Notes under the pieces: generated by a model | What the model saw: the letters and a program-made list of their open reading frames with translations, nothing else | Database searches by the model: none | Told to the model about the DNA's origin: nothing | Assembly: GCF_017310505.1 (NCBI RefSeq) | Contig: NZ_CP065957.1 | Span: 1,116,001 to 1,180,000, forward strand | Direction: 5' to 3' | DNA length: 64,000 nucleotides | Source: Methylacidiphilum caldifontis | GTDB lineage: Bacteria; Verrucomicrobiota; Verrucomicrobiia; Methylacidiphilales; Methylacidiphilaceae | Translations under genes and position numbers: made by a program | In this document: piece by piece, positions 10,603 through 18,203 of the stretch | Numbering within the stretch: the stretch's first letter is position 1 | Layout of the letters: every line of letters starts with the position of its first letter

Positions 10603-10629
10603 TTGACAACTTTTTTTAAAAGGAATACT
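10603..10629 (+). promoter_or_regulatory. Candidate sigma-70-type promoter for the first fluoride riboswitch
   Basis: A perfect TTGACA (10603-10608) is followed after 15 bases by AATACT (10624-10629), a 4/6 match to the -10 consensus. The start of transcription would fall near 10636, about a dozen bases before the aptamer. The -35 is convincing and the -10 is weak. Confidence 0.4.
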
Positions 10630-10648
10630 CGAAACTGAAAAAGAATAC

Positions 10649-10731
10649 CTGGCAATGGAGTTTGCCAGCCCTCGGTTCCGAAGTGTTTGGGCAAACCCCT
10701 TTTCTTTCATGAAAAGGTGATAACTCCTACT
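10649..10731 (+). promoter_or_regulatory. Fluoride riboswitch (crcB RNA) upstream of the outer-membrane efflux lipoprotein
   Basis: The aptamer architecture is complete. P1 is CUGGCA (10649-10654) with UGCCAG (10663-10668). The P1 loop contains AUG and the pseudoknot strand GGAGUU (10657-10662), which pairs with AACUCC (10722-10727). P2 is CCUUUUC (10698-10704) with GAAAAGG (10711-10717), followed directly by UGAU (10718-10721) and ending CUCCUAC. This is the layout of the Thermotoga petrophila fluoride aptamer. It differs in an extended linker between P1 and P2 (10669-10697, 29 bases), possibly folded by CCC/GGG. No terminator stem follows before the start codon, so control may act on translation. 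Confidence 0.82.
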
Positions 10732-10754
10732 TCATTAACTTGGGCTGCAAACAA

Positions 10755-12509
10755 ATGAATTCAGGTCGAAAGGCAAAGGGGAAAAAAGAAAAAGGACTTT
10801 TCGGTTTAAATAAGCCTTTGGCTTCTTTTAGCCTTCCTTTGCTTTCGGTTATACAATGGGCAATATTGTTTGTTTTTGTTAGCTGTTCGGTTGGTCCTGA
10901 CTATAAACCCCCTAAAGTCGACATTCCCAAAAATTGGAAATGGGGAGAGCCAAAGCCTAACCCCAACCCTTCCCCAAGCCAGGGAAAGCCAAAGCCAGCA
11001 GTCAACAAAGAAGCAAATAAAGGAAATGGTCTTCAAAGTGAAGAAAACATAAAAAAAGCGATTGAAGAAGCGAAGAAAAACCCGGGAAAATGGAAAGTCG
11101 CTGAACCAAAAGATTTCATCAAAAAAGGAGAGTGGTGGAAAATCTTCAACGATCCGGTTCTTAACCAACTTGAAGCTGAAGCCGAAGTGGCTAACCAACA
11201 GATCAAGATGGCGATGGCCAACGTCGTCGAAGCCCGTGCGGGGGTGGGAGCAGCCTTAAGTGCTTTTTTCCCCCATACCAATTTCACTCCAAGCTACCAG
11301 CGTTGGAAACTCAAGACTCATCTTCCCTGGCTCCCTTTCATTTTACCTGAACCCATCTATTCCACAGTTCCCCTACCCGGTATACCCGCTGGCTCGATCA
11401 TTGGAACAACCCACTATTATGGATTTCAGCCTACCCTGAATATGTGGCAAGTATATCTTAATTCAAACTGGGAACTGGATATATGGGGAAAACTAAGGAG
11501 GCAACTGGAAGCGGCAAAGGCCGAAGCTCAAGCTTCTCAAGCCGAACTAGAAGGCATGAAACTAACGATTCATGCCGACGTAGCCCAGGCTTATTACCTA
11601 TTGCGTTACATCGATAGCCAACTTGAGGTAATGGAACGGATGATCCATGTCTACGAAGACAACCTGAAAAGGGTAGAAATTCGCTATAAAAGCGGTCTAT
11701 CTAACGAGTTGGACCTAGCAAGGGCAAAAACCGATCTTTCACGGATAAAGGCCCAGTATATTGCTCTGGAAAGCCATAGGGCAAAAGTGGAAAATTCGAT
11801 TGCCAGGCTCCTTGGTCAGCCCGCCTCAACCTTCCATTTTCCCCGAAAGCCCTTAAAAGAAGAACCTCCTGATATCCCCACAAGCCTACCTTCAGAAATT
11901 TTAGAGCAAAGACCAGACATATCTCAAGCTGAAAGGGAAATGGCTGCAACCAATGCGATGATCGGAGTAGCCTATGCGGCCTATTTTCCATCCGTCAATC
12001 TCAATGCCTACTTTGGATTTTTCAACACCGATTTTGGCCAGCTCTTTACTTGGCCTTCCAATTCATGGATATATGGCCCTTTGATTGATCTTCCTCTTTT
12101 TGAGGGCGGTAGACTATTGGCCAACTTGATGCAGGCTCGTGCTGCATATGAAAAAGCGGTAGCTTCCTACCGAGAGACCGTTCTTTCTGCGTTTGAAGAA
12201 GTGGAAAATGCTTTGATCGGTGTGCGGTTGTTGGAAGAAGAACAAAAAGTCGAGGATGAGGTTGTCGCTTCAGCTAAAAAACAATATGAGCTAGCTTTCG
12301 ATCGGTTTCAAAGAGGACTTTCTCATTACATTGAAGTTGATACCACCGAAACGGTTTGGCTCAACGCCATTCTTACAGACATTGCATTGCGAGGTGAAAG
12401 ATTTATTGTCCGCATCGCCCTTATACGTGCATTTGGTGGAGGATGGCAAGACAGCTCGATGAAAAAGTCGCCTATTAAAGAAGCTGAGTCTAAAAAAGTC
12501 CAAAAATAG
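10755..12509 (+). CDS. NodT/TolC-family outer-membrane efflux lipoprotein under fluoride-riboswitch control
   Basis: This is the outer-membrane channel component of a tripartite efflux pump. A signal peptide with lipobox (FVFVSC, about residues 35-40 from this start) leads into the NodT hallmark CSVGPDYKPP. A lysine/proline-rich, low-complexity insert of about 70 residues precedes the EWWKIFNDPVLNQL motif. Two OEP repeats follow, including ANELDLARAK-like SNELDLARAKTDL, EQRPDISQAEREMAATNAMIG and GLSHYIEVDTTE. A TTG at 10740 is in frame, but the ATG at 10755 gives a better signal peptide. It is preceded by one fluoride riboswitch and followed by a second, ahead of MFS and fusion-protein genes that would complete the pump. 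Confidence 0.92.
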   Translation: MNSGRKAKGKKEKGLFGLNKPLASFSLPLLSVIQWAILFVFVSCSVGPDYKPPKVDIPKNWKWGEPKPNPNPSPSQGKPKPAVNKEANKGNGLQSEENIKKAIEEAKKNPGKWKVAEPKDFIKKGEWWKIFNDPVLNQLEAEAEVANQQIKMAMANVVEARAGVGAALSAFFPHTNFTPSYQRWKLKTHLPWLPFILPEPIYSTVPLPGIPAGSIIGTTHYYGFQPTLNMWQVYLNSNWELDIWGKLRRQLEAAKAEAQASQAELEGMKLTIHADVAQAYYLLRYIDSQLEVMERMIHVYEDNLKRVEIRYKSGLSNELDLARAKTDLSRIKAQYIALESHRAKVENSIARLLGQPASTFHFPRKPLKEEPPDIPTSLPSEILEQRPDISQAEREMAATNAMIGVAYAAYFPSVNLNAYFGFFNTDFGQLFTWPSNSWIYGPLIDLPLFEGGRLLANLMQARAAYEKAVASYRETVLSAFEEVENALIGVRLLEEEQKVEDEVVASAKKQYELAFDRFQRGLSHYIEVDTTETVWLNAILTDIALRGERFIVRIALIRAFGGGWQDSSMKKSPIKEAESKKVQK

Positions 12510-12531
12510 AAATAAAAAGAGAAAATTTAAG

Positions 12532-12559
12532 TTGAAAATTAAAAATCTCTGGTTAATAA
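12532..12559 (+). promoter_or_regulatory. Possible promoter for the second fluoride riboswitch
   Basis: TTGAAA (12532-12537) with TAATAA (12554-12559), spacing 16, would start transcription about a dozen bases before the second aptamer. The match is modest in a very AT-rich stretch, so it is only a candidate. No terminator was seen between the lipoprotein stop and this point. Confidence 0.3.
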
Positions 12560-12580
12560 GGTCTGTAACACGACTATATT

Positions 12581-12645
12581 GGGCGATGGGGCTCGCCGAC
12601 CGTTAACCGCCTTTCTTCAAAAAAAAGAAGGCTGATAGCTCCTAC
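12581..12645 (+). promoter_or_regulatory. Fluoride riboswitch (crcB RNA) upstream of the MFS efflux transporter
   Basis: This is a near-textbook fluoride aptamer. P1 is GGCG (12582-12585) with CGCC (12594-12597), enclosing AUG and the pseudoknot strand GGGGCU (12588-12593). That strand pairs with AGCUCC (12637-12642), with one G-U pair. P2 is GCCUUU (12609-12614) with GAAGGC (12627-12632), followed directly by UGAU (12633-12636) and then CUCCUAC. Downstream, GGGGC (12671-12675) could pair alternatively with GCUCC (12638-12642), a possible expression platform. About 117 bases separate the aptamer from the MFS start. Confidence 0.9.
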
Positions 12646-12762
12646 TGCTAATTTAATAAAAAATGAAAATGGGGCGGAAAACGGTCATCTTTACGAATAA
12701 CTTCAAGTTATATTTCAATTTTCTCGATCCCCTCTTGACTAAAAGGAAAAGGATAAATTCTT

Positions 12763-14289
12763 TTGCCCACAATGAATAATTCCCTAAAACTTTTTTTTCT
12801 CTTTTTTCTTTATTTTATCCTTCAATGTTTCTGTTTTTTCCAATCGGGTTCCTATACGGACATCATTCCCTATGCAACCGCTGAGCTTGGCCAAAGTCAA
12901 AGTCATGGTGCATGGACTAATGGATTTTTTTTCTTAGGGCAAGGATTCGGCCTTCTCATGGCTAGCCCATTGAGCCTTCATTATGGAAGAAAAAAAACCG
13001 TACTCTTCTTTTCTTTTCTTCTCTCGGCCAGTAGCATCCTTTGTGCATGGGCCTGGGATTTCTACTTTTTTTTGATTGGTCGGTTATTGCAGGGTATTTG
13101 CTGTGGTGTGCTAATCATCGGCTCTCAAAGTTTAATGTTTGAAAATACTCCTGAAACCTGGAGAGTCTTTCCCTTAATGCTAGGGGCCATGGCTAGTGTG
13201 CTACCCTTTACAATTGGTCCAACAATTGGTGGCTATGGCAAAGAGTTTTTAGGCAGAGAGTCAAGCAGTTGGAGGTACTGGTTTTATCTGAGTGCTATTC
13301 TTTTTCTTATCCTCAGTTTGTTGCTTTATCAGCTGTTCGAAGAAAAGGGAGAAGTTCCGACAAAAAAGCGATGGGATTGGAAAGGCTCAATCCTTCTTTT
13401 TATAACCTTGGCTGCTGCACAAATGATTTTCAACATGGGCGATGATTACGAGTGGCTTATTTCTCCCATTATCGATTTTATGCTTATCTTGGCCATTGCC
13501 AGCTTTATTGGTTTGATAGTCGTGGAATTTAACCAGATAGATCCTTTCCTCCGTGTAAACCTTTTATTAAGAAAAAATTTTTTAATCGGTTCGGTATGCT
13601 TGACAATTGGCTTTCTCTTTTTTTATGGCTTGTGGACAACGCTGCTTGTCCGGCTTCAGAATCAATGCCTGTTCCCGCCACACCAAGCGGGGACTCTCTT
13701 TATCGGCATGGCACTTTTTTCCACACCCATCTCTTTTTTTCTACCCAGGCTAGTAGGCAAAATAAAATTTCGCATCTATGGTTTTTTTGTATTTGTCCTT
13801 CTGGGTGGACTTTACAGCTGGATGGGCTATTTCGATTTTTACCAGAAAAGATGGTTCTGGGTGCAATCCCCTTTTATTTTTCTTCTTCAGGGTATTGCTT
13901 TAGGTCTTTTCTTTATCCCTCTTACTAATCTGATCATCTCCGGCCTTTCTCCTAAAAATCAACTTCTAGCCGTTGAGCTTTCAAGCAGTATGCGTATTAT
14001 TGGCCAGGGATGGGCTTCCCCCATTATCGGCACGATCCTCTACCACCGGATTGTTTTTCACAAGATGCGGCTAGCTGACTGGCTCTACATGGGTAATCCC
14101 TATTTGATGGAATATTATTCAAAGTTCAAAGAGCAAGGAATGGATAGAGAAATAGCCTTTAAGTTTCTCGATCAATCGGCCCTTTCCCACGCCTTTATCA
14201 TAAGCCTTGATGATGCTTTCAGGTTCTGTGGCATAGGTTTCTTCATTTTATCTGGATTGATCCTTTTGGCTAAGGAAAAACAAGACTAA
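12763..14289 (+). CDS. DHA2-type MFS multidrug/solute efflux transporter (EmrB/QacA-like)
   Basis: This inner-membrane proton-coupled exporter of about 508 residues has around 14 hydrophobic segments, as in the EmrB/QacA group. Family features are the loop GRKK between helices 2 and 3 (PLSLHYGRKKTVLFF), the GRLLQGICCGVLIIGSQ helix, and motif-C-like FTIGPTIGGYG. The TTG at 12763 has AAGGA nine bases upstream, while the ATG at 12772 is 18 bases from it, so TTG may be the true start. The gene lies behind the second fluoride riboswitch and 14 bases before an EmrA-like fusion protein. What it exports is unknown; the riboswitch suggests it serves fluoride resistance or a fluoride-linked stress. Confidence 0.88.
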   Translation: MPTMNNSLKLFFLFFLYFILQCFCFFQSGSYTDIIPYATAELGQSQSHGAWTNGFFFLGQGFGLLMASPLSLHYGRKKTVLFFSFLLSASSILCAWAWDFYFFLIGRLLQGICCGVLIIGSQSLMFENTPETWRVFPLMLGAMASVLPFTIGPTIGGYGKEFLGRESSSWRYWFYLSAILFLILSLLLYQLFEEKGEVPTKKRWDWKGSILLFITLAAAQMIFNMGDDYEWLISPIIDFMLILAIASFIGLIVVEFNQIDPFLRVNLLLRKNFLIGSVCLTIGFLFFYGLWTTLLVRLQNQCLFPPHQAGTLFIGMALFSTPISFFLPRLVGKIKFRIYGFFVFVLLGGLYSWMGYFDFYQKRWFWVQSPFIFLLQGIALGLFFIPLTNLIISGLSPKNQLLAVELSSSMRIIGQGWASPIIGTILYHRIVFHKMRLADWLYMGNPYLMEYYSKFKEQGMDREIAFKFLDQSALSHAFIISLDDAFRFCGIGFFILSGLILLAKEKQD

Positions 14290-14303
14290 AGAGCTGGGAT
14301 ACC

Positions 14304-15611
14304 ATGAAAGAGCATCGGAAAGAGGGAATGAAAAATGGATTTTCTCCTATTTTTAATGTCGTAGGGGAAAAGAAAAATAAGGGCCGTTTTCAGCAACTTT
14401 TCAAAGCGGTATTTCGCTCATGGGAAAAGGATCTTTCATCGTTTTTTTCCAATAAATATTTTATTTTACTGTTCTTTTTTATCCTGTTTGTCTTAGGAAG
14501 CTGGTGGTTTTTCTTTGCAACCCGTTGGGTATCAACAAATGATGCTTACGTAACCGGTAATGTTATTCCTGTCAAAGCCCAGACTTCAGGGAGAGTTGTG
14601 GAAGTCTTGGTTGAATCCACTCAATTCGTCCAAAAAAATCAGCTGCTTGTCCGGTTGGATTCGCTGAAACAGCAGGTAGCCTTTGAAAGTGCTAAGCACA
14701 ACCTGGCTATGGCTGTTCGAAGGGTTGAAGATCTCTTCAACAAGGCAAGATCCTTGCGCAACAAAATCGCTGCACAAAAAGCCATTTTAGGCAGACAACG
14801 TTATGATCTTGGCCTTTACACGTCAGGAAGCAAAGCCGGAGTAGTTTCAATCCAAGATGCTGTGGATGCTCAATGGAAAGTAGAGGAGATAGAATCGACA
14901 ATAAGGCAGCTTGAAGATGAATTGAGGTCAACCGAAGCTTGGATTCAGAAAACGACCATATGGGATAATCCCATTGTGCTCAAAGCGGCAGTAGAACTCA
15001 AAGATGCCTACCTGGCTTTATACCGGTGTCAGGTTGTGGCACCTGTAGCGGGTTATATCGCAAAGAGATCGGTACAGGTTGGCGATGAGGTGAATCCTGA
15101 AAAGTTGCTCATGTCTGTAGTGCCCCTAGATTATTACTGGGTTGTCGCTAATTACAGGGAGACCGAACTTAGGAAGATGAAACCGGGGCAACCTGTAAAA
15201 ATCAGGGCAGACATCTATGGTAGGCGCTATTTGTTTCATGGAATAGTTGAAGGGATAGAACCGGGTTCTGGAAGTGTTTTTTCTCTACTTCCTCCTGACA
15301 ATGCCACAGGCAATTACATTCATGTCGTTGAAAGAGTTCCTGTAAGAATAAAAATTGATCCCAAAGAACTCCAAAAACACCCTTTAAGACTTGGACTGTC
15401 GGTTGTGACCAAAGTGGATGTGGCCTATAAGGGTCAATCAGTGCTTAAACCCCTGACAGAAATTCCTCCTGAAGTCAAGAAAACCGATTATACTTCGTCT
15501 TATTTTACCGAAGAACTGGTGGGAGTAGACAATTTAATAAGATCGATCATTGAACAAAACCGTTATCCCCAAGACCAAACTCAAGGTTCTTTAAGCCAAA
15601 AAAAGGAATGA
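14304..15611 (+). CDS. HlyD/EmrA-family membrane fusion (periplasmic adaptor) protein
   Basis: It links the MFS pump to the outer-membrane channel. A cytoplasmic N-terminus of about 50 residues precedes one inner-membrane helix (YFILLFFFILFVLGSWWFFF, about residues 52-71). The EmrA signature STNDAYVTGNVIPVKAQTSG comes next, the first lipoyl half. A long alpha-helical hairpin follows (about residues 125-230), then the second lipoyl half CQVVAPVAGYIAKRSVQVGD and a beta-barrel with DYYWVVANYRETEL. A 14-base gap after the MFS gene implies one transcript under the second fluoride riboswitch. Its C-terminal 40 residues are variable. Confidence 0.92.
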   Translation: MKEHRKEGMKNGFSPIFNVVGEKKNKGRFQQLFKAVFRSWEKDLSSFFSNKYFILLFFFILFVLGSWWFFFATRWVSTNDAYVTGNVIPVKAQTSGRVVEVLVESTQFVQKNQLLVRLDSLKQQVAFESAKHNLAMAVRRVEDLFNKARSLRNKIAAQKAILGRQRYDLGLYTSGSKAGVVSIQDAVDAQWKVEEIESTIRQLEDELRSTEAWIQKTTIWDNPIVLKAAVELKDAYLALYRCQVVAPVAGYIAKRSVQVGDEVNPEKLLMSVVPLDYYWVVANYRETELRKMKPGQPVKIRADIYGRRYLFHGIVEGIEPGSGSVFSLLPPDNATGNYIHVVERVPVRIKIDPKELQKHPLRLGLSVVTKVDVAYKGQSVLKPLTEIPPEVKKTDYTSSYFTEELVGVDNLIRSIIEQNRYPQDQTQGSLSQKKE

Positions 15612-15725: not shown

Positions 15726-16133
15726 ATGACCTTGGAAAAAATCCTTGTCGGCTACGATGGCTCGGAAGGAGCAAAAAAAGCGTTAAGTTTCGCTTTGAAA
15801 TTAGCAACTGTTATGGGTTCAAAGATAACGATCCTTGCTGTCAGTCATCCTCCCGAGTTCAACCAAGATACTGAATTTAGTCTTGAAAGGCAGAAAATTG
15901 TATCTGAAATTAAATGGGCCATGGAAAAAGCGGCAGAAGAAAAAGTAGGGATTGAGGTAAAAACCGCGATGGGAGATCCAGCAGACAAGATTATTAAACT
16001 GGCCCGGGAAGGTAACTTCGATCTCGTAGTCTTGGGTCGAAGGGGGCTATCCAGGGTTGGATATTGGCTCACCGGTTCAGTGTCTGAACGAGTTGTCCGT
16101 CACAGCCCTTGCTCAATTCTGATTGTAGAATAG
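15726..16133 (+). CDS. Universal stress protein, UspA family (ATP-binding type)
   Basis: A 135-residue single Usp domain. It starts with the strand KILVGYDGSEGAKKAL and ends with the nucleotide-binding motif G-2x-G-9x-G-S (GRRGLSRVGYWLTGS) followed by RVVRHSPCSILIVE. The intact motif predicts ATP binding, as in the MJ0577-like branch. It lies 114 bases after the fusion-protein gene, probably with its own promoter. Usp proteins are general stress factors, so a link to the fluoride-controlled efflux genes is only suggested by position. Confidence 0.9.
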   Translation: MTLEKILVGYDGSEGAKKALSFALKLATVMGSKITILAVSHPPEFNQDTEFSLERQKIVSEIKWAMEKAAEEKVGIEVKTAMGDPADKIIKLAREGNFDLVVLGRRGLSRVGYWLTGSVSERVVRHSPCSILIVE

Positions 16134-16365: not shown

Positions 16366-16779
16366 ATGGAAGAAAAAATATCGATCATTCTTTTTTCTGG
16401 AACCGTAGACAAACTTCTTGCCGCAGTTACAATTGCATCAGGTGCCGCAGCCATGCAAAAGAAGGTCCAGATTTTTGTGACCTTTTATGGGCTTTTAGCT
16501 TTTAGAAAAGATGATTGGAAAACCAATAGACGACTCAGTAAAGATTTTGAAGATTTTGCTACGGAGGCCTTAAAGGCGATGGAAGCCAAGAAGGTCCCCA
16601 ATTGGTTGGATACGTTAAAAAGTGCGATGGAAATTGGAGATGTAACGGTTCATGCCTGTGGGCTAACCATGGATCTTTTAGCCATTAAACTTGAAGATTT
16701 AGAATCTGTTGTCAGTGATATTGTTGGTGTAGGGACGTTCATAGAAAATGCTTCCGGCGGCCAAATTCTCTTTCTCTAA
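16366..16779 (+). CDS. DsrE/DsrF/DrsH-like (DsrE2-type) sulfur-trafficking protein
   Basis: A 137-residue protein of the DsrE-like superfamily. The N-terminal KISIILFSGTVDKLLAAVTI and the middle FVTFYGLLAFRKD are family-typical. The conserved cysteine lies in HACGLTMDLL (about residues 99-108), the expected persulfide carrier site. A good Shine-Dalgarno (AAGGA) precedes the ATG. Only 12 bases separate it from a TusA gene and then an SQR-like flavoprotein, an arrangement known from sulfur-oxidising bacteria and archaea, where DsrE-type proteins and TusA pass sulfane sulfur. Confidence 0.85.
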   Translation: MEEKISIILFSGTVDKLLAAVTIASGAAAMQKKVQIFVTFYGLLAFRKDDWKTNRRLSKDFEDFATEALKAMEAKKVPNWLDTLKSAMEIGDVTVHACGLTMDLLAIKLEDLESVVSDIVGVGTFIENASGGQILFL

Positions 16780-16791
16780 CAGGAGGTTAAT

Positions 16792-17034
16792 ATGGAAGGA
16801 ATTAAAATTACAAAAGAAGTCGATGCTCGGGGCAGCTTTTGTCCAGGACCTTTGATGGAAATGATCAGGTTAATCCGATCTGCAAATGTAGGAGATGTAG
16901 TCGCTGTCATTTCGGGTGATGAAGGCACAAAAAAAGACCTGCCTGCATGGATCAAAAAGGCAAAGCATGAACTGATTGCTGAAGAACCCATAGAGGGTGG
17001 TGCTACTCGTTTTATCTGTAAGAAACTCCATTAA
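16792..17034 (+). CDS. tusA: TusA-family sulfurtransferase
   Basis: An 80-residue sulfur carrier. The TusA motif CPGP (in DARGSFCPGPLMEMI, about residues 15-22) carries the active cysteine. The fold-typical GDVVAVISGDEGTKKDLPAW follows and the protein ends in FICKKLH. The ribosome binding site AGGAGGT is strong. It sits between the DsrE-like and SQR-like genes and probably relays persulfide sulfur between them; the direction is inferred. tusA is used as a family name; a role in tRNA 2-thiolation cannot be excluded. Confidence 0.9.
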   Translation: MEGIKITKEVDARGSFCPGPLMEMIRLIRSANVGDVVAVISGDEGTKKDLPAWIKKAKHELIAEEPIEGGATRFICKKLH

Positions 17035-17057
17035 TTCAATCAAAAGAGAGAGTTTTT

Positions 17058-18203
17058 ATGGCCAAAAATATCTTGGTATTGGGAGGAGGAACAGGAGGTT
17101 CTATTGTTGCCAACATTTTGGCACGAACATTAAAGAGCCAAGAAGCACAAATTACGGTCATATCTGATTCTCCTCTTCATGTCTATCAACCTTTCCAGCT
17201 TTACATTCCTTTTGGCTACCAGGACCCCCGCAAAATCGCACGCTCTGAAAGATCGCTTCTGAACAGAAGGATATCCCTGGTTATCGATCCCGTTGAACAG
17301 CTCGATGTCAAGAACCATCAAGTCATATGTCATTCTAAGAAAAGCTATCCCTATGATTATCTGGTTATCGCCACCGGTTCTGTTGTCGATGAAGAGCAGA
17401 TAGCGGGTTTTAAAGAGGGAGCTGATCATTTTTATACACCCAAGGCCGCTTTTTCTCTCTATGAAAAACTTCAAAATTTTAACGGGGGAACGATCGTTGT
17501 GGGTATTGGAGGACTGCCTTACAAGTGTCCTGTAGCGCCCATTGAGTTTACTTTCATGCTTGAGGAATTTTTGACGAAAAAAGGGTTACGTCAGCGGACT
17601 GAAATTATCTATACTTTTCCTCTTAATGATGTTTTTAATATCAAAACCGCAGCCGATTACATTCGAACTGACTTTGAAAAGCGAAATATTAAGACTGAGC
17701 TTTTCTTTAACTTGGCTGAAATTCATCCCGAAAAAAAGGTTGTTGAAAGCTTAGAAGGGACTGAGCTTTCCTATGATCTCCTTGTCATGACTCCACCTCA
17801 TAAAGGAGCAACTTTTCTTAGGGGACACGAAATTGCGGATGCCGAAGGTTGGATAAATACGGATCGACATTCACTAAAGGTATTAAATGCGCAAGACATC
17901 TGGGCTCTCGGAGACACTACAAACTTGCCGATAAGCAAGGCAGGCAGCACAGCTCATTTCCAGGCCCCTGTTATTGCAAGACAAATCTGTGCAGCGATCA
18001 GGCAGGAAAATCTAGAGGATGGGAAAAACCGTTACAATGGTCATGTGGCCTGTTTTATCGAATCGGGGTACGGAAAGGCAACCATGCTCGATTTCGATTA
18101 CGATCATCCTCCTCAACCCCCACCCCCTTCCGAGTTTATCCATTTTCAAAAATTAGCCCTAAACAAGTTTTATTGGTATCTTATTCCCAAAGCAATCATA
18201 TAG
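17058..18203 (+). CDS. Sulfide:quinone oxidoreductase-like FAD flavoprotein
   Basis: This is a pyridine-nucleotide-disulfide-type flavoprotein of the SQR/FCSD group. FAD-binding GGGTGGSIVANIL lies at about residues 8-20, the YLVIATGS strand near 108, and the C-terminal FAD motif WALGDTTNLPISKAGSTAHF near residue 280. A cysteine in GGLPYKCPVAPIEF and another near residue 334 (GHVACFIESGYG) are candidates for the sulfide-oxidising pair. It should be a peripheral inner-membrane enzyme passing electrons from sulfide to quinone. It is the third gene of the cassette, 23 bases after tusA. An unusual substrate such as a persulfide carrier is possible. Confidence 0.82.
   Translation: MAKNILVLGGGTGGSIVANILARTLKSQEAQITVISDSPLHVYQPFQLYIPFGYQDPRKIARSERSLLNRRISLVIDPVEQLDVKNHQVICHSKKSYPYDYLVIATGSVVDEEQIAGFKEGADHFYTPKAAFSLYEKLQNFNGGTIVVGIGGLPYKCPVAPIEFTFMLEEFLTKKGLRQRTEIIYTFPLNDVFNIKTAADYIRTDFEKRNIKTELFFNLAEIHPEKKVVESLEGTELSYDLLVMTPPHKGATFLRGHEIADAEGWINTDRHSLKVLNAQDIWALGDTTNLPISKAGSTAHFQAPVIARQICAAIRQENLEDGKNRYNGHVACFIESGYGKATMLDFDYDHPPQPPPPSEFIHFQKLALNKFYWYLIPKAII

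Follow-up and report, generated by a model that had tools for sequence, protein, structure and literature searches.

Bacterial fluoride exporters identified to date are, by the account of a 2024 review, of two kinds, Fluc and CLC-F, both of them inner-membrane proteins (PMC11139923). Expression is reported to go up under fluoride riboswitches (PMC11139923), and antiporters, enolase, and universal stress proteins are already known to lie behind them (PMC11139923; PMC5533749); the ppaC-uspA-eno-gpmA-crcB operon of Enterobacter cloacae FRM, which follows a fluoride riboswitch, has been found experimentally to be fluoride-induced (PMC5533749). Here, we describe a locus of Methylacidiphilum caldifontis (Verrucomicrobiota; Methylacidiphilaceae; assembly GCF_017310505.1) at which two fluoride aptamers precede the genes of an envelope-spanning efflux pump resembling EmrAB-TolC of E. 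coli. The locus lies in a stretch of 64,000 nucleotides (contig NZ_CP065957.1, positions 1,116,001 to 1,180,000, forward strand), hereafter the window, from whose first nucleotide all coordinates are counted. Taken as a whole, the locus is best explained as the pump arm of a fluoride regulon, a reading to which we give a probability of about 0.7.

Two fluoride aptamers and the pump genes behind them

A covariance scan of the whole window against all Rfam families (cmscan) returned only two RNA matches above gathering score, both to the fluoride riboswitch family (RF01734; gathering score 34 bits) and both on the + strand. Aptamer 1 (10642–10736; 44.2 bits, E = 5.6e-9) stands before the channel gene, whose start lies less than 20 bases 3′ of it, and aptamer 2 (12573–12651; 49.6 bits, E = 9.9e-11) stands before genes for a major facilitator superfamily (MFS) transporter, a periplasmic adaptor, and a universal stress protein (Usp). 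The P1, P3, and pseudoknot strands and the aptamer core are present at both sites, and the pseudoknot strands differ between the sites but stay paired (GGAGUU/AACUCC versus GGGGCU/AGCUCC). Across the genus, the P1 and pseudoknot strands of aptamer 1 are conserved in 5/5 genomes, and the core of aptamer 2 is invariant in the same number although its flanks diverge. The complete 2.25-Mb genome holds three fluoride aptamers in total, two at the pump locus and the third before a CPA2-type cation:proton antiporter (CPA) gene; given this scarcity, and with the pair retained across 5/5 genomes of the genus, chance matches were rejected as an implausible account. An earlier note on this DNA had proposed the two aptamers, and the RF01734 search that it suggested bears this out at both sites.

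All of the pump genes are encoded on the + strand. The first (10755–12509) encodes a NodT/OprM-type outer-membrane efflux lipoprotein (PF02321, 173.1 bits), which scores well above the cut-off of the NodT subfamily model (TIGR01845 outer_NodT, 359.6 bits against 210.05) and displays a candidate lipobox (FVSC) followed by SVGPDYKPP. While its open reading frame (ORF) is open from TTG 10740 (10740–12509), the likelier start is ATG 10755. The second gene (12772–14289) encodes a DHA2-family MFS transporter (TIGR00711, 172 bits) with EmrB as its best solved homologue (E = 2.4e-68); here too, the ORF is open from an upstream TTG (12763–14289), with ATG 12772 the likelier start. The third (14304–15611) encodes a periplasmic adaptor, or membrane fusion protein, with an invariant TNDAYVTGNV motif (TIGR00998, 287.1 bits), the best solved homologue of which is EmrA (E = 4.5e-93). 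We term the latter two EmrB-like and EmrA-like, as both score below the curated cut-offs for those families. An AlphaFold2 model of the MFS protein (mean predicted local distance difference test 75.8, predicted template-modelling score 0.80) most closely matched EmrB in a Foldseek search (8zal_J, E = 3.9e-19) and aligned to this EmrB chain of EmrAB-TolC over 490 residues (Z = 35.0, root-mean-square deviation 3.3), such that the predicted structure shares the DHA2 MFS fold of EmrB.

A Usp gene (15726–16133; PF00582, 111.1 bits) is a conserved member of the operon. It lies between the adaptor and channel genes in Methylacidimicrobium, the second genus of the family, and behind the adaptor in G028, the sole genome of a third genus, and we have therefore included it in the set. 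The earlier note's description of a NodT-type channel, EmrB-type MFS transporter, and EmrA-type adaptor thus stands with revised starts for the first two (ATG 10755 and ATG 12772) and with its type labels, upheld by the best solved homologues and the fold, softened by the curated scores. Its three-gene extent proved too narrow: the conserved unit reaches the Usp gene, and the regulon includes the CPA2 antiporter.

Conservation in the Methylacidiphilaceae and recurrence in other bacteria

The aptamer pair, ~1.9 kb apart and with the same genes behind it, is present in 5/5 genomes of Methylacidiphilum. In the seven genomes of Methylacidimicrobium, the order is instead aptamer-MFS-adaptor-Usp-channel, and where the contig extends far enough, a CPA antiporter gene preceded by a second aptamer follows the pump. 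The link between aptamer and pump is therefore kept in 12/12 genomes from the two genera, although the channel gene heads the cluster in Methylacidiphilum and closes it in Methylacidimicrobium; given this difference in order, fluoride control of the pump has been retained through rearrangement, and the pump and antiporter are neighbours in Methylacidimicrobium. The earlier note had made its proposal depend on conservation of the aptamers upstream of orthologous pumps, which these 12 genomes show. At one locus (L039:12879-14331, genome G022), the aptamer-linked MFS gene is apparently split by a frameshift near codons 141–152, either a sequencing error or a broken gene.

The third fluoride aptamer of the genome, which lies outside the window, precedes the 384-a.a CPA2-type antiporter, in which a Na_H_Exchanger domain was identified (PF00999, 123.3 bits; TIGR00932, 114.3 bits, under its cut-off of 238.3). 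The pump accordingly belongs to a wider fluoride regulon together with this antiporter and the Usp. Neither of the known exporters was found in the family: the CRCB domain of CrcB/Fluc was present in 0/13 Methylacidiphilaceae genomes (10/14 control genomes positive), as was the Voltage_CLC domain of CLC (12/14 control genomes positive), the window genome being included in both searches. The earlier note's remark that no crcB or eriC gene lies nearby therefore holds and extends to the whole genome and to all 13 family genomes searched.

Fluoride aptamers are not a general feature of EmrAB-type pumps, a possibility that we rejected because 0/27 loci with related adaptors carry one; these loci are mostly aptamer-free paralogs from the family, Methylococcales, and Acidithiobacillus. 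The paralogous pumps, with ~50% adaptor identity, occur within Methylacidiphilaceae genomes, including G028 and those of Methylacidimicrobium, and serve as an internal control for the aptamer-pump link. No fluoride aptamer was found at the related pumps of Methylococcales (~50%) and Acidithiobacillus (~40%), nor at a pump copy on a plasmid of Methylosinus OB3b (L330). Acidithiobacillus was also considered as a parallel case and rejected, as the operon behind the aptamers there is hydrogenase/complex-I-like and includes CrcB.

Beyond the family, we surveyed the genes behind fluoride aptamers, noting that the samples favour high-scoring aptamers and home-made reference proteins were used, such that the counts are guides rather than frequencies. 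In the same phylum (388 genomes, 51 aptamer loci outside the family), 19 loci led to CrcB, 16 to a CPA antiporter, seven to enolase, four to CLC, and five to other genes; an EmrAB-like pump stood behind none of the 51. One of the five others, in Verrucomicrobiota (L139:4748-10376; G080:C9, minus strand), has an aptamer (37.8 bits) directly before the outer-membrane factor, adaptor, and RND (ACR_tran, 729.6 bits) genes of a complete tripartite pump, possibly a further recruitment of an envelope-spanning pump to a fluoride aptamer. The 127 loci from Acidobacteriota and Pseudomonadota comprised 55 with CrcB, 25 with CLC, 14 with CPA, six with enolase, two hydrogenase-like, one DUF190, 23 unassigned, and a single EmrB-like MFS. 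In the last (genome G940), the aptamer heads an MFS-channel-adaptor cluster, while another aptamer, in convergent orientation, stands before the gene for a CPA antiporter that is 50% identical to that of the window genome.

The alphaproteobacterial family of G940, which includes Methylocystis (199 genomes), has pump genes tied to 11 of its 30 inspected aptamer loci. The arrangement aptamer-MFS-channel-adaptor-CPA occurs at two alphaproteobacterial loci and, with a terminal enolase gene added, at L314, and the same arrangement without the CPA gene at three more, including G940; at a further locus (L325), the aptamer stands before the MFS gene with a CPA gene beside it. Other loci couple the aptamer to a channel and adaptor, either alone (L317), behind a CPA gene (L319, aptamer-CPA-channel-adaptor), or followed by genes for a plasma-membrane-type proton P-type ATPase (930 bits, cut-off 615.5) and polyphosphate kinase 2 (PPK2) (L309, L310, and L311, from G1254, G1316, and G1329; spelled out in L309). 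One of these loci, on plasmid pSS37A-Re-1 of Methylocystis iwaonis (NZ_AP027143.1, L329), has an aptamer of 59.5 bits upstream of a cluster annotated as an MFS transporter, efflux outer membrane subunit, HlyD adaptor, and cation:proton antiporter.

In maximum-likelihood trees of the adaptor and of the MFS protein, the aptamer-linked sequences formed two groups, Methylacidiphilaceae and alphaproteobacteria, with aptamer-free lineages between them. The aptamer label required three and four changes on the adaptor and MFS trees, respectively, against means of 15.6 and 13.0 after shuffling, and no fewer than two changes are imposed by the branches with good support; long branches were flagged by the tree tool. 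The trees set the two groups apart, and both a pair of separate recruitments and a single gain followed by losses would fit. One MFS residue, T32 (numbered from TTG 12763), is threonine in every aptamer-linked sequence with a residue at that position, in both phyla, and in 0/19 aptamer-free relatives, E. coli EmrB having Asn34; threonine also occurs in G028 and in one aptamer-free alphaproteobacterial plasmid copy. As a candidate specificity site, T32 was judged weak, being one column in ~500 and present in these two aptamer-free cases.

Several other observations were made alongside. Downstream of the operon, the window (16366–18203) encodes DsrE-like, TusA-like, and sulfide:quinone-reductase-like ORFs, the first and last of which adjoin the operon in genus relatives as well. 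One surveyed genome carries 13 fluoride aptamers, grouped into two islands that also hold copies of CLC, CrcB, and enolase (G1160:C1:2591204-2629935 and 4428773-4442417; L320–L322). Aptamers also precede large proteins with a GQF/GEF/GQYKRGKS-type P-loop, which by eye resemble dynamin-like GTPases (L058, L060, L166, L171, L177, L183, L266, and L268), and a conserved ~230-a.a protein (M.YS.EIQ.MCPIQ...; L192, L193, L197, L230, L231, L233, and L234).

Predicted switching, mechanism, and alternative explanations

At the channel site, a putative switching strand of 11 bases, GGGCTGCAAAC (10742–10752, + strand), ends two nucleotides before ATG 10755 and is complementary to a P1/J strand of aptamer 1, GTTTGCCAGCCC. 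The stretch has the same position in 5/5 genus genomes, and a compensatory G-C to U-A change in the stretch and the aptamer was noted in G025. The predicted ligand-free fold uses this stretch, with an energy that is not unusual (z = −0.50). At the MFS site, the putative switching strand, GGGGCGGAAAACGGTC (12671–12686, + strand), is complementary to the aptamer strand GACCGTTAACCGCC and pairs with the aptamer in the predicted ligand-free, minimum-energy fold (z = −2.63), and the downstream strand (GGCGG..AACGG) is conserved in 5/5 genus genomes. The duplex energy between aptamer and downstream sequence gave p values of 0.01–0.11 at this site within the genus and was mostly not significant in Methylacidimicrobium. 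A leader ORF of 38 codons (12663–12779, + strand) has a stop that overlaps the MFS start region, and leader ORFs of 22–43 codons with a stop overlapping or touching the MFS start were present in 12/12 aptamer-bearing family genomes, an arrangement that suggests translational coupling. In the predicted unliganded folds, neither aptamer stays intact and the sequence around the following start codon is paired, a pattern that ON switches should show, and a coherent model is that both sites would act as translational ON switches. An intrinsic terminator was rejected as the expression platform in the window, where seven terminator-like sites were found against 6.8 in shuffled sequence, with none on the + strand just 3′ of either aptamer. 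Four Methylacidimicrobium-side leaders have a short hairpin and a T run after the aptamer; the terminator scan of L037 did not list such a site, and we do not propose a terminator there.

In the mechanism that we infer from these features, a rise in cytoplasmic fluoride would lead each aptamer to fold around Mg2+-fluoride and free the sequence paired beside the start codon. Folding of aptamer 1 would make the NodT-type channel gene accessible at its start, and folding of aptamer 2 would free the leader ORF overlapping the MFS start, such that the MFS protein, adaptor, and Usp would be made together. The channel, MFS protein, and adaptor would then assemble into a proton-driven, EmrAB-like complex through both membranes, acting beside the CPA2-type antiporter whose gene follows the third aptamer, in a lineage lacking CrcB and CLC. 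In this division of labour, the antiporter would handle the ion or protons and the pump a larger compound.

Several observations weigh against this account. The operon of G028 comprises channel, MFS, adaptor, and Usp genes, with no aptamer found even at permissive thresholds, indicating that the pump can exist without fluoride control. The MFS and adaptor proteins fall short of the curated EmrB (TIGR00711, 172 against a cut-off of 230.2 bits) and EmrA (TIGR00998, 287.1 against 390.8 bits) scores, and a test of the longest complementary run showed no excess for the MFS-site helix. Among the alphaproteobacteria, the channel and adaptor genes of some loci have no EmrB-like gene nearby, as in L309–L311, and some genomes carry pump genes plus an aptamer-controlled CrcB. 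It could be argued from G028 in particular that the aptamers are relics or chance matches with no control over the pump. We consider this very improbable, given that their cores are invariant while the flanks diverge, that they score above the gathering score in 12 genomes, and that the aptamer-pump link recurs in another phylum.

What the pump would export is the more difficult question. The operon at L314 ends in enolase and the neighbouring genes defend internal pH, which ties the pump to fluoride stress; enolase is a fluoride-inhibited enzyme. The reading that we favour, though we hold it an even call, is that the substrate is larger than bare fluoride and either arises or turns harmful as fluoride levels climb, be it a fluoro-organic, a metal-fluoride complex, or a metabolite that accumulates where fluoride inhibits enzymes. 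Alternatively, the pump may export fluoride or hydrogen fluoride (HF) itself straight to the outside, as a proton-coupled third exporter class replacing CrcB and CLC. CrcB and CLC are absent from 13/13 family genomes though all but one carry fluoride aptamers, and EmrB-type pumps are proton antiporters, which would suit a cell with a large pH gradient. In Pseudomonas putida, moreover, fluoride tolerance is conferred by a benzoate transporter that is related to neither Fluc nor CLC (PMC13104614). We nevertheless regard direct export as less likely: small F−/HF should cross outer-membrane porins, leaving a dedicated channel little to add and speaking for bulkier cargo, the antiporter behind the third aptamer would fill this role more simply, the closest solved relatives are drug pumps, and some genomes with the pump genes have an aptamer-controlled CrcB as well. 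Less likely still is that the pump answers the acid or uncoupling side of the stress, with HF carrying protons inward and fluoride serving only as the signal that induces an antiporter, a proton pump, a stress protein, and a general EmrAB-type weak-acid pump. The CPA2 antiporters, Usp, and L309–L311 proton ATPase among the neighbours would fit this, as would the standing of Na+/H+ antiporters as the second commonest riboswitch-linked class (PMC11139923); yet the aptamer-free EmrAB-type paralogs in the same genomes would serve general stress, and the terminal enolase of one operon is a direct fluoride target. A broader proposition can be entertained tentatively: that the proton-driven pump of EmrAB-NodT type represents a third class of exporter in fluoride defence, one that spans the envelope and is dedicated to fluoride or a fluoro-compound, that with the CPA2 antiporter it has fully replaced CrcB and CLC in the Methylacidiphilaceae, and that it came under fluoride riboswitches on two or more occasions in methanotrophs and related bacteria.

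Comparison with known systems

HF should enter extreme acidophiles such as the Methylacidiphilaceae freely, and these bacteria have neither known exporter; instead, an envelope-spanning pump and a CPA2 antiporter lie behind fluoride switches. As the arrangement turns up again in another phylum, at one locus with a terminal enolase, the pump is a strong candidate for a missing part of fluoride tolerance, and its presence in both acidophilic and unrelated methane-eating bacteria points to an undescribed arm of bacterial fluoride defence. The question of what a fluoride-stressed cell must expel thereby becomes directly testable, with a bearing on bacteria that break down fluorinated compounds. 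The earlier note knew of no EmrAB-TolC-like system under double fluoride control, and our literature search likewise turned up no paper that places an EmrAB-type pump under a fluoride riboswitch; the gene survey of Baker et al. 2012 lay outside the scope of that search, and an earlier mention is possible.

The window cluster resembles E. coli EmrAB-TolC in combining a DHA2-type MFS transporter, an anchored adaptor, and an outer-membrane channel. It differs in that its MFS protein shares ~24% identity with EmrB, that a dedicated NodT-type channel gene and a Usp gene are attached, and that fluoride aptamers stand in place of the MprA repressor gene preceding emrAB in E. coli. Compared with known fluoride riboswitch regulons (crcB motif, RF01734), the links to a CPA antiporter, Usp, and, in alphaproteobacteria, enolase are those of established partners (PMC11139923, PMC5533749), whereas the output in the window is an envelope-spanning pump in a genome without CrcB or CLC. 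The Enterobacter cloacae FRM operon similarly places a fluoride riboswitch before a multi-gene operon containing a universal stress protein, but its exporter is CrcB and no EmrAB-type pump is found there. Another parallel is plasmid pSS37A-Re-1 of Methylocystis iwaonis, where a fluoride aptamer precedes genes for all three pump components together with a CPA antiporter; unlike the window cluster, this one falls on a separate tree branch, has a single aptamer for the whole cluster, lacks a Usp gene, and is plasmid-borne. Sensors and pumps of these classes are each known already, and what is new here is their union, together with a fluoride regulon lacking both CrcB and CLC.

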